DNA from: Deltaproteobacteria bacterium
Lineage (GTDB): Bacteria > BMS3Abin14
Direction of reading: 5' to 3'
Assembly (NCBI GenBank): GCA_013151915.1
Contig: JAADHJ010000011.1
Location: forward strand, 1-64,000
DNA length: 64,000 bases
The position numbers and the translations under genes are program-made. Below the pieces are notes generated by a model that was not told the origin of the DNA, searched no databases, and worked only from the letters and a program-made list of their open reading frames with translations. This document shows positions 3,346 to 15,324 of the stretch, piece by piece. How positions within the stretch are numbered: the stretch's first letter is position 1; each line of letters starts with the position of its first letter.

Positions 3346-4596
3346 ATGAAGAAACCAGAAGGTTCCTGGCTGCTGCCCACCGGTGTTTTCGAGATGCCCC
3401 CCGCCAGGGCGGCGTTTATAAGAAGGGTGGAAGGGCAGATCATGGATGCTTTCCGGCTGTGGGGGTACCGGGAGGTTCGCACCCCGGCCATGGAGTACCT
3501 GGAGACCATGGCCCAGGGACTTGAGGCGGCCGAATTGGATATGGCCTTCAAGCTGGTGGACCGGGCCACGGGCAGGGTGATGGTCCTGCGGTCCGATATG
3601 ACGCCCCAGGTCGCGCGTATGGCGGCCCTGGCCCTTCAGGATGTTCCATATCCCCTGCGGCTGTGCTATGTCTCGGATGTCTACCGTTATCCCAGGGACC
3701 CCAGTCATCCCAGGCGGGAGCTGATCCAGGCGGGGGCCGAACTTCTGGGTCCGGGCGACCCACAGGCCGACGCGGAGGTGATCGCTCTTGCCGTGGAGTC
3801 CCTGAAAAGGATGGGATTTTCAGGGATCAGGATCTCCTTGGGGCAGGTCAGCTACGCCAGGGGTTTGTTGAAGGAGTGCGGTCTGTCCAGGGAAACGGAG
3901 GATCTCCTCATCGGAGCCGCGGACAGGAAGGACGTTGGGGAGGTCGGACGAATCCTTGACCGGACGAACGTACAACCATCCCTGAGGCAGTCGGTCCTCT
4001 CCCTGGCCGAGCTGCGCGGCGGCCTCGAGGTAATAAGGAAAGCCGGGAAGGGTGCCCCAAACGGCGAGTGTTCGGACGCCCTTTCCAACCTTATGGAGGT
4101 TCTTGACCTTGCTGTTTCCCACGGCGTCGATGCCCATCTCATCGAGGTGGACCTGGGAGAGCTGTCCTCGTTCAGATATCATACGGGAATCGTCTTCTCC
4201 GGTTTCGTTTCGGGCGCGGGCAGGGCGATTCTGAAGGGCGGAAGATACGATGATCTGGTTGGGAAGTTCGGTCGTCCCGCCCCGGCCACCGGTTTTGCCA
4301 TTGATATCCTGGAATTAGTTGAGATCGTGTCGAGGACCGAAGTCAGGCACGGGGGTGTTGATTACCTCTTTGTGAACAGGTCCGGAGACCAGGCGAGAGG
4401 GCTGTCCGCCGCCATGGAACTGAGACGTAAGGGCCGGGGAGTATTTTGTCTTATCCAGGACCTGGGCGATGAGGATCTTCCGGCCTTCGCCGGGGCCCAC
4501 GGGATCAAGACGATAATTGTTCTGGAAGACGGGGGGTTGAGGAGATGGGACAGCAAGGCCGGCAGATCCACCCCGTGTGATATTGATGCTCTATAA
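3346..4596 (+). CDS. hisZ: ATP phosphoribosyltransferase regulatory subunit HisZ
   Basis: 416-aa HisS paralogue. It keeps the class II aminoacyl-tRNA synthetase-like core (LRSDMTPQVAR, RLCYVSDVYRY, GGRYDDLVGKFG, PATGFAIDI). Its early sequence LLPTGVFEMPPARAA and its short C-terminal region point to HisZ rather than histidyl-tRNA synthetase. HisZ pairs with short-form HisG to allow catalysis and histidine feedback in the first step of histidine synthesis; HisG is not in this window. It lies 72 bases after serA, and hisZ next to purA is an arrangement I recall from Geobacter relatives. Confidence 0.88.
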   Translation: MKKPEGSWLLPTGVFEMPPARAAFIRRVEGQIMDAFRLWGYREVRTPAMEYLETMAQGLEAAELDMAFKLVDRATGRVMVLRSDMTPQVARMAALALQDVPYPLRLCYVSDVYRYPRDPSHPRRELIQAGAELLGPGDPQADAEVIALAVESLKRMGFSGIRISLGQVSYARGLLKECGLSRETEDLLIGAADRKDVGEVGRILDRTNVQPSLRQSVLSLAELRGGLEVIRKAGKGAPNGECSDALSNLMEVLDLAVSHGVDAHLIEVDLGELSSFRYHTGIVFSGFVSGAGRAILKGGRYDDLVGKFGRPAPATGFAIDILELVEIVSRTEVRHGGVDYLFVNRSGDQARGLSAAMELRRKGRGVFCLIQDLGDEDLPAFAGAHGIKTIIVLEDGGLRRWDSKAGRSTPCDIDAL

Positions 4597-11800: not shown

Positions 11801-11873
11801 CCCCTAGATGGCTCTTTGTCCCTCAATGGGCTATGATGCTTCCAATTCTAAAGAATGCCTGACGGATATGAAA

Positions 11874-11984
11874 GATGATGGACTCGCAAAAAGTCCATCA
11901 TCGCGCCCGGGGAGGAAAGTGAAAATGACACTTTTCGCTTTTCGTGGAGTAAAAAGCCACGAATGGACTTTTTACAACCCAATC
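11874..11984 (+). repeat. R1 element, copy d (111 bp, lacks central stems)
   Basis: GATGATGGACTCGC through GTCCATCATC, then straight to GGAAAGTGAAAATGACAC and the terminal hairpin, ending CAACCCAATCA. The central GGCGCC and AAATC stems are missing. The ribosome-binding site of the helicase gene begins four bases later. Confidence 0.8.
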
Positions 11985-12010
11985 ATGAAAGGAGCTTGAA
12001 AGACGTTGCT

Positions 12011-14536
12011 ATGAAAGGGCCGGGAGGTAAGGGCGAGGAGCGATTTTCCCCGGAAACACAGATATTCGTCCGGGATGAGATCGCCGATTGTGGTGGAAAT
12101 GAAGTCTTCTTCATCGGGCGGACCGATGGGGAGGGTCTCGTTGTGGACATTTTGCCCATGGCCAGGGGCGACCGCGAGGCGGTTCCGGCCATCACGGAGA
12201 ATACAGGGCCCGGGGATGTGGTGATCCACAACCATCCGACGGGTATTCTGGCCCCATCGAAAGCCGATCTTTCCATTGCTTCCAAGGTGGGTGGTGACGG
12301 GGTCGGTTTTTACATCGTGGACAATGAGGTCAGGCGGGTCTATGCCGTCGTGGAACCTCAGCAGGCCAGGGGGACCGTTGAACCGCTCAATCCGGAAGAA
12401 ATATCCGCTCTTCTGGGTCCCAATGGGCCCTTGGCCGCCGTTCATCCCCACTATGAGTCACGTCTTTCACAGTGCCGTATGGCTGCTGACGTGGCGCGTA
12501 TTCTTGACAGCCGGGCGGTGGGCGTCCTCGAGGCGGGAACCGGTACGGGGAAAAGCCTCGCCTATCTGATCCCGGCCGTCCTTTGGGCGTTGAAGGGGAA
12601 GCGCCGGGTTGTGGTTTCCACCCGAACGATCAACCTCCAGGAGCAGCACCTTCGACAGGATCTGCCTCTTGTGCAGAAGGCTTTGGGGGAACCTTTCAAA
12701 GCTGTCCTTATCAAAGGGCGTGGGAACTACCTGTGTCTTCGTAAAAGGGATCTGTTGGATAATGATTCAGGAGAATTGCTGCTCGATTTCGATGACGTCC
12801 TGGAGGTCAGGGAACTCATCGAATGGAGCCGGATGACATCCGACGGGACCCTTTCGGACCTGTCCTTTGTACCCGGTGACGCCAACTGGAACCTTTTGAA
12901 AGCCGAGTCCGATTCCTGCCTGCGGGCCAGGTGCCCTCACTTTTCCGACTGTTTCTTCTACCGCTCCAGGATGGATGCAGCATCGGCCCAGATCCTTCTT
13001 GTCAACCATCATATCCTTTTCGCCGACTTGGCAGTCCGCAGCGCCGGGCATGAAGCCGCCGCGGTCATGCCCCGCTACGATGCCGTGGTACTTGATGAGG
13101 CGCACAACCTGGAAAGTGTGGCCCTATCCTACTTCGAGGGCAGTGTGGGGAAATGGGGCCTGATGGGGCAACTGGGCCGTCTGGTCAGCAGGAAAAAACA
13201 GGACAGGGGCCTTGTCCCCTTTCTTACGAGACGGATCAGCGGGATGCGTTTCTTGAATGTCGGGAAAAGGAATAAACTCGATGAACTTGCCGGCTCAATA
13301 ACATCCGGCGTCACGGAGGCGAGGGGTCGTATGGATCGTATATTCGACGATCTCGCAGGTGTGATGATTCCATGGCTGGGAGGCGCCCGGGGAACGGGCT
13401 CCAAGTGGCGCGTCCCCCCGGCCCTGAGGAACGAAGCCGAATGGAAAAAGGTTGAACAACTCCTCGATGAACTTGGCGCCGCCCTTTCGGTTCCCTTGGC
13501 CCCCTTAAGGAAACTCAACCGGGTTCTGAGGGGTCTGGTTGATGACGGTTTTGATGATCTTACCGGGTTCTGGGGGGATATCGGGGCGGTAGCCTCCCGC
13601 CTGGATGCGAGCCTGGATTTCATCACACGGGTCCGGGAAGGTGAGGAAGACGGTGAGGTCTGCTGGGTGGACGTACGCCTCAGGAAAGGACGTTCATCCG
13701 TCAGCTTTCACCTGACCCCCCTGGATGCGGCCCAAATCATGGAGCAGACCCTTTTTTCCCTGGATGGGCCGGTGGTGATGACTTCCGCTACCCTGACAGT
13801 TGAAGGGACGTTCGATTTTTTAAACGAGAAGCTTGGCATCAGGTCTCTCCAGGACCGTGATGTGGTGGAGGAGGTCTACCCATCACCCTTTGATATGGCC
13901 GCCCAGATGCGCCTGGCCGTGCTCGACGATGTTGCGGAACCGGGGAGAGAAGGGTATGTGCGTGAACTGACCCACGCTGTGTTGGATCTCGTGAAAGCTT
14001 CGGGTGGTGGGGCACTGGTGTTGTTTACATCCTACAGGACAATGGACGCGGTTTTCGAGGGGTGTGGGGAGGAATTTTCCCGGCGGGGGATTCAGGCCCT
14101 CCGCCAGGGGGAATCCCCCAGAACGGTTCTTCTGGACAGGTTTCGTTCAGATCCGGATCTGACCCTCTTTGCAACCGACAGTTTCTGGGAGGGGATCGAT
14201 GTTGTGGGGGATTCCTTGCGGAGCGTAATTATCACGAGGCTTCCTTTCCCCGTGCCCACGGACCCTGTGATGGAGGCGAGAAGCGAGGCCCTGGTGAGGG
14301 AGGGACGGGATCCATTCATGGAGGATTCGGTGCCCCGCGCCGTCATCCGGTTGAGACAGGGGGTCGGCAGGCTCATCCGGCACAAAGATGACCGCGGATT
14401 CGCGGTCATTTGCGATACGAGGTTGCTAAAGCGATCTTATGGGAGAATCTTCCTGAACTCTTTCCCGGGAACCGAGGCGGAGGGGGGCACCGTGGCCGGC
14501 ACCGCGGCCGATATCAGGACCTTTCTGGATATTTGA
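12011..14536 (+). CDS. dinG: DinG/XPD-type helicase with N-terminal JAMM-like domain
   Basis: 841-aa superfamily 2 helicase of the DinG/Rad3 group (5'-3' DNA unwinding). Walker A GTGTGKS is at 176-182, the DEAH box at 362-365, and the late motif QGVGRLIRHKDD is present. Four cysteines (242, 303, 308, 314) are placed as in the XPD iron-sulfur cluster. Residues 1 to about 120 are extra: HNHPTGILAPSKAD (73-86) fits the JAMM zinc motif H-x-H-x7-S-x2-D, suggesting an MPN/JAB-like metallopeptidase or isopeptidase fold. ATG 12011 is the first in-frame ATG outside repeat R1d, but AAAGGAG at 11988-11994 is rather far, so TTG 11996 cannot be excluded. Confidence 0.9.
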   Translation: MKGPGGKGEERFSPETQIFVRDEIADCGGNEVFFIGRTDGEGLVVDILPMARGDREAVPAITENTGPGDVVIHNHPTGILAPSKADLSIASKVGGDGVGFYIVDNEVRRVYAVVEPQQARGTVEPLNPEEISALLGPNGPLAAVHPHYESRLSQCRMAADVARILDSRAVGVLEAGTGTGKSLAYLIPAVLWALKGKRRVVVSTRTINLQEQHLRQDLPLVQKALGEPFKAVLIKGRGNYLCLRKRDLLDNDSGELLLDFDDVLEVRELIEWSRMTSDGTLSDLSFVPGDANWNLLKAESDSCLRARCPHFSDCFFYRSRMDAASAQILLVNHHILFADLAVRSAGHEAAAVMPRYDAVVLDEAHNLESVALSYFEGSVGKWGLMGQLGRLVSRKKQDRGLVPFLTRRISGMRFLNVGKRNKLDELAGSITSGVTEARGRMDRIFDDLAGVMIPWLGGARGTGSKWRVPPALRNEAEWKKVEQLLDELGAALSVPLAPLRKLNRVLRGLVDDGFDDLTGFWGDIGAVASRLDASLDFITRVREGEEDGEVCWVDVRLRKGRSSVSFHLTPLDAAQIMEQTLFSLDGPVVMTSATLTVEGTFDFLNEKLGIRSLQDRDVVEEVYPSPFDMAAQMRLAVLDDVAEPGREGYVRELTHAVLDLVKASGGGALVLFTSYRTMDAVFEGCGEEFSRRGIQALRQGESPRTVLLDRFRSDPDLTLFATDSFWEGIDVVGDSLRSVIITRLPFPVPTDPVMEARSEALVREGRDPFMEDSVPRAVIRLRQGVGRLIRHKDDRGFAVICDTRLLKRSYGRIFLNSFPGTEAEGGTVAGTAADIRTFLDI

Positions 14537-14838: not shown

Positions 14839-15324
14839 ATGACAAAATATCCCATGACTCCCGGGGGGCTGGAGAAATTGAAAAGTGAATTGAAAAGGCT
14901 GAAGGCCGAAGAGCGCCCCAAGGTAATCGAGGCCATCGCCGTTGCCAGGGAGCACGGTGATATTTCCGAAAACGCCGAATATGACGTGGCCAAAGAGCAG
15001 CAGGCGTTTCTTGAGAGCCGAATCCGGGGAATCGAGAATCGGATCGCAAACGCCCAGGTTGTGGATCCTGCGGGAGTCGGCACCGACAAGGTGGTTTTCG
15101 GCGTCCTCGTGAAAGTCCAGGACCTGGAGTCCGGGGAGGAACTGGGCTACCAGATTGTAGGCGAGGACGAAGCGGATGTTTCCGCCGGGAAGATCAATGT
15201 GACATCCCCTGTGGCCAGGTCGCTTATTGGCAAGCAGGTGGGTGACGTGGTACAGGTGCAGATCCCAAGGGGTCTGAGGGAACTGGAGATCCTTGATATA
15301 TCCATCCCCGCTAATACTGCCTGA
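14839..15324 (+). CDS. greA: Transcription elongation factor GreA
   Basis: 161 aa, the usual length. The N-terminal coiled coil carries the acidic finger tip GDISENAEYD, which reaches the RNA polymerase active site and triggers cleavage of backtracked RNA. The C-terminal FKBP-like domain contains GKINVTSPVARSLIGKQVGD. ATG 14839 follows TTGGAGGG. The gene stands alone between repeat R1e and its own terminator. Confidence 0.97.
   Translation: MTKYPMTPGGLEKLKSELKRLKAEERPKVIEAIAVAREHGDISENAEYDVAKEQQAFLESRIRGIENRIANAQVVDPAGVGTDKVVFGVLVKVQDLESGEELGYQIVGEDEADVSAGKINVTSPVARSLIGKQVGDVVQVQIPRGLRELEILDISIPANTA

Follow-up and report, generated by a model that had tools for sequence, protein, structure and literature searches.

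In this work, we analyzed a gene in which a RadC-like JAMM domain is joined to a DinG-type helicase. It is located at 12011-14536 on the + strand of the window (the whole 64,000-nucleotide stretch of DNA under analysis) and encodes 841 amino acids plus stop according to the ORF translation. Our preferred reading, to which we assign a probability of about 0.45, is that the product might be a housekeeping DinG/YoaA repair helicase which, by means of an apparently intact JAMM hydrolase, would carry out helicase-fed proteolysis of proteins bound or crosslinked to DNA. To judge from the sequences compared, the fusion itself is real and under selection, since the JAMM site is practically invariant across many phyla; the joining of a JAMM domain to a DinG/XPD helicase, observed in the earlier note, was confirmed by the motif, the structural model and the conservation. 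The architecture is already known, and what is added here is its wide spread, the loss events and the acidic character of the fused domain.

The full-length model of the fusion reached a mean pLDDT of 92.1 and a pTM of 0.90. The start codon is provisional because an in-frame ATG lies at 11963, 16 codons upstream of 12011. A copy of a dispersed palindromic intergenic repeat (11912-11985) stops just ahead of the gene start, and further copies are found in the window at 264, 7849, 10135 and 14719. The 30-base core of this repeat is present five times in the window, with none expected, and at least 51 matching pieces were found in the genome (40 of 256 first-look candidates scored); the stretch 11870-11990 folds with a z of -5.2.

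The RadC-like JAMM/JAB domain was delimited to residues 12-116 (12044-12358, + strand) by the model, the fold matches and the Pfam RadC family. Residues 73-86 (HNHPTGILAPSKAD) fit H-x-H-x7-S-x2-D exactly, as the earlier note had read them, and comprise the predicted zinc-ligand histidines in H73-N74-H75 (12227-12235, + strand) and the S83 to D86 portion of the motif (12257-12268, + strand). The catalytic-glutamate position is occupied by E31 (12101-12103, + strand), which directly precedes strand 32-38; in JAMM enzymes this glutamate is the catalytic base. PMC300881 describes the equivalent glutamate of AfJAMM as forming hydrogen bonds and not coordinating zinc. Conservation was assessed in 73 sequences, namely the window copy and 72 loci less than 90% identical from many phyla, taken from the best 80 of 310 candidates encoding a relative in genome contigs after leaving out two loci cut by the contig end (L081, L082), five lacking the domain (L083, L085, L086, L088, L091) and one near-duplicate (L053). 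E31 was kept in all 72 rows with a letter at that column, H73 in 72/73, N74, H75, S83 and D86 in 73/73 each, and N105 in 71/73, the sole exception at H73 being an arginine in the Treponema locus L071. This conservation rules out a chance motif.

The model of residues 1-150, built with 72 relatives, had a mean pLDDT of 95.2 and was aligned by VIA-align to BubCD (Z 10.4, rmsd 2.5, 109 aligned), PfJAMM1 (Z 10.2, rmsd 2.8, 102 aligned) and CsRpn11 (Z 9.9, rmsd 2.8, 108 aligned), while the top Foldseek matches were BubCD and the RadC structure 2QLC (E 6e-4 for the latter). In a profile search against solved structures, 2QLC was the only significant relative (E 2.4e-7; AfJAMM, 0.37). Over 150 amino acids, the window copy scored 20.8 bits against Pfam RadC (PF04002), just under the gathering cut-off of 22.1; several relatives exceed it (33.4 bits, for example), and all 73 fused domains, window included, match the family at E<=0.01. 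The complete E-Xn-H-x-H-x7-S-x2-D motif is found on an MPN fold, with N and not S/T between the histidines, as in RadC. An unrelated fold or unconserved zinc ligands, which the earlier note held to be fatal to its reading, were not what emerged; the fold is that of JAMM proteins, the ligands are near-invariant and the upstream glutamate it considered worth looking for is in place. Taken together, sequence and model indicate that the N-terminal domain is a RadC-clade JAMM and apparently a catalytically intact zinc hydrolase.

The remainder of the protein, residues 145-841 (12443-14533, + strand), is a DinG/YoaA-type XPD-family helicase, as assigned from NF053712 YoaA, Helicase_C_2 (E 7.9e-46) and structure matches. 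The description of a complete iron-sulfur DinG helicase given at first sight proved accurate: the MD1/MD2 helicase domains, the arch and the Fe-S domain with its CCCC set are all present, and in a 91-row helicase alignment that counts near-duplicates and truncated loci we found intact (i) the Walker A sequence GTGTGKS at residues 176-182 (12536-12556, + strand; K181 in 91/91), (ii) the Fe-S cysteines C242, C303, C308 and C314 (12734-12952, + strand; 91, 87, 91 and 88 of 91 rows), and (iii) the Walker B DEAH box at residues 362-365 (13094-13105, + strand; D and E in 91/91, A in 89, H in 87). The full-length model matched E. coli DinG (6FWS, Z 38.5) and S. aureus DinG (8ZEF, Z 37.2). NF053712 YoaA ranked first in NCBIfam with 537.8 bits, below its cut-off of 680, and the DinG equivalogs gave 386.9 bits against 598 and 430.5 against 789; since all scores lie under the equivalog cut-offs, the helicase is, on these profiles, DinG-like yet outside the NCBIfam DinG/YoaA equivalogs. 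DinG-family enzymes move 5'->3' on single-stranded DNA.

Fusions were found in Planctomycetota, Spirochaetota, Acidobacteriota, Fusobacteriota, Hydrogenedentota, Bacillota and others, so that the deltaproteobacterial fusions mentioned in the earlier note are real and reach far past that group. Within the window's phylum, the fused domain is present in 11/12 genomes; PF13307 (DinG/XPD C-terminal) gave a single match in 11/12, the one in genome G005 being a fragment elsewhere. Among the 32 genomes behind the loci, 28 had one PF13307 match over the cut-off and four had two. The fusion is the only DinG-family helicase in 23 of the 27 carrier genomes (the 32 minus five domain-less ones), draft assemblies allowing, and is thus usually the sole DinG-family helicase per genome. 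A stand-alone RadC co-occurs in 9/12 genomes of the window's phylum and in 29/32 other genomes (two as fragments, counted by frame length), and the fused domain is thus distinct from the RadC of the cell. One RadC-like match of 36.2 bits, in the genome of locus L039, lies within a 2886-aa open frame (G022:C529:398439-398729).

Some relatives keep the helicase and lack the domain (L085, L086, L091 and two Chlamydiota), which means that the JAMM domain is not essential to the helicase. A quick IQ-TREE phylogeny built from the helicase portion of 79 rows nests three domain-less Treponema inside domain-bearing Spirochaetota, in a clade with L040, L043 and L071 at 100% SH-aLRT, which makes their lack of the domain a loss; for the Chlamydiota, where the fork is unresolved, loss and ancestral absence both fit. 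Gene splitting was rejected, as no second frame with H-x-H-x7-S-x2-D was found at five domain-less loci. The L071 fusion mentioned above (3806-4231), with arginine for the first zinc histidine, is sister to domain-less lineages and is possibly a case of domain decay in progress. In a survey of Spirochaetota, a match was obtained in 135/149 genomes, and the matches listed include full-length ones and ones starting only after about query residue 80-139. At three Spirochaetota loci (L034, L038 and L051), the open frames around the fusion measure 1171, 1475 and 1258 aa and may be either longer proteins or overlong frames.

The setting looks like one of chromosomal housekeeping genes. The upstream neighbour in the window is presumably a small heat-shock protein, and we take the next downstream gene (14839-15324) to encode a GreA-like protein; a GreA-like neighbour is found at four loci including the window, all within the clade of the window's phylum. 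Neighbour clusters are mainly clade-bound, the widest comprising 16 loci, mostly Planctomycetota, and clustering of the neighbours of the loci yielded no conserved partner across phyla. A mobile or defence element was considered and rejected, because the 150-aa domain had no match among 72,556 plasmid records and the neighbours are housekeeping-like and recur only within clades. Taken alone, that domain had no match in PADLOC either; the PADLOC matches of the whole protein are helicases lying outside the JAMM domain, the best being a type IV CRISPR DinG. Matches to the fusion protein (P0001) were obtained in 42 phage records, and the five listed align with the helicase only, from query residue 131-146.

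How could such a protein act? The helicase would run 5'->3' along single-stranded DNA until it met a bound or crosslinked protein, which it would unfold, and the JAMM domain might then cut the exposed chain; a ubiquitin-like tag would be unnecessary. Several lines of evidence make us favor this helicase-fed proteolysis. First, the JAMM fold carries the complete motif, and those of its structural neighbours whose activity is known act as (iso)peptidases. In addition, the fused domain bears a net negative charge and lacks any column of conserved K/R, and the context is a housekeeping one without conserved partner. Besides, there is a precedent in the eukaryotic sister family: PMC12279946 describes how FANCJ runs into a crosslinked protein while translocating, and how the unfolding that follows lets SPRTN cut. 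Likewise, according to PMC12345164, S. aureus DinG is needed for resistance to mitomycin C and formaldehyde, and both its N-terminal exonuclease and its helicase are required. From FANCJ/SPRTN and S. aureus DinG we infer by analogy what a JAMM-DinG might do. The link to protein removal and DNA-protein adducts proposed in the earlier note is plausible. More doubtfully, it is tempting to speculate that the fusion may be a one-polypeptide counterpart of FANCJ plus SPRTN, that is, a JAMM protease which needs no ubiquitin, is fed by the helicase and clears DNA-protein crosslinks across numerous bacterial phyla, with a DNA motor presenting the substrate to the JAMM enzyme. Helicase-fed proteolysis as such is weakened by the existence of relatives lacking the JAMM domain, by that of acidic nucleases, and by the fact that the closest solved sequence relative is RadC, which may act on nucleic acid according to PMC5512222.

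Both peptidase and nuclease roles have been proposed for RadC-clade JAMM domains, and the main competitor of helicase-fed proteolysis, which we regard as possible with clearly lower probability, is that the domain works as a metal-dependent nuclease, or processes nucleotides, at the position where other DinGs have their exonuclease. RadC is its closest relative by sequence, and the ExoDinG exonuclease is positionally equivalent (S. aureus DinG aligns from its own residue 234, opposite model residue 129), the N-terminal nuclease of S. aureus DinG being active according to PMC12345164. A nuclease role was preferred in the 2017 paper PMC5512222, which draws the argument from RadC-DinG fusions and contends that RadC has no groove for a ubiquitin tail, and the idea was repeated for RadC in PMC3482391. 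Against it, the Foldseek and VIA lists are led by JAMM/MPN proteins (the absence of nucleases from them is not counted as proof), and the fused domain is strongly acidic: its net charge is negative in 72/72 rows, with a mean of -7.4 over 105 aa, compared with -0.6 in a set of 30 RadC domains drawn from the same or related genomes (Mann-Whitney p 9e-15, only a guide since the rows are related), and its acidity exceeds that of the helicase to which it is joined in 82/82 rows, near-duplicates counted. No column with >=80% K/R was found in residues 12-150 of the 73-row alignment, and the P-R pair of RadC (P in 32/32, R in 24/32) is not among the conserved columns of the fused domain. Acidity and the lack of a conserved basic residue would thus favor a protein substrate. 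They only lean that way because, among the nuclease controls, the DnaQ exonuclease domain of E. coli and RNase T are themselves acidic (-3.8 and -4.2 per 100 aa; ExoX 0.0, RNase HI +1.3), which weakened charge as proof against a nuclease.

Considerably less probable is a regulatory or structural role, in which the domain would bind a partner (SSB or a clamp-loader protein, for instance) or sense zinc or redox state, the metal being kept for folding. The loss of the domain in at least one lineage fits this, as does the report, in section 3.8 of PMC11981726, that RadC-like DinG genomes are without HolC, so that another recruiter would be needed; nevertheless, a metal site with a structural role alone would have no use for E31, which is kept in 72/72 rows. 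A deubiquitinase-like isopeptidase removing a ubiquitin-like tag from repair proteins is very improbable despite the fold neighbours Rpn11, PfJAMM1 and BubCD, as no neighbour is conserved across phyla and neither Pup ligase (0/12) nor Prok-JAB above the cut-off (0/12) was detected in the genomes of the window's phylum. From the interpretation first offered, the JAMM fold and the helicase fusion were confirmed, together with the glutamate it considered worth looking for; the survey for Pup ligase and Prok-JAB lent no support to a ubiquitin- or Pup-like partner.

The group has a name in a 2025 review, "RadC-like DinG" (PMC11981726), which notes the resemblance to metalloproteases, reports that DALI finds metalloproteases and no nucleases, and states that no research has been done on it. 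Our search, mostly outside subscription journals and preprints, retrieved mentions of the fusion in PMC11981726 and PMC5512222 and neither a measured activity nor an experimental paper. The fusion ties a RadC-clade domain to a helicase of known substrate type, and point mutations in one protein can be used to probe it; should it be a protease, bacteria would possess a dedicated, tag-free DNA-protein-crosslink protease.

Within the known systems, the window copy differs in nothing essential from RadC-like DinG such as that of Desulfuromonas soudanensis, with which it shares the architecture, the E, H, H and D residues, the YoaA-like helicase and the metalloprotease-like fold, its score lying just under the Pfam RadC cut-off. 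RadC (PF04002; 2QLC; E. coli YicR) has the same fold and an HNHP-type motif in which N likewise separates the two histidines; however, it is stand-alone, near neutral in net charge and conserves P-R, whereas N105 marks the fused group. The ExoDinG proteins of S. aureus and B. subtilis likewise place an enzymatic N-terminal domain at the same position ahead of the helicase, but this is an exonuclease where the fusion has JAMM, and the Pfam scan of the window protein at E<=1 gave no exonuclease family. The SPRTN protease fold (SprT) is unrelated to JAMM. FANCJ plus SPRTN resembles the fusion in that an XPD-family Fe-S helicase works with a zinc metalloprotease, although these are two proteins, and eukaryotic ones, which makes the analogy one of function only.
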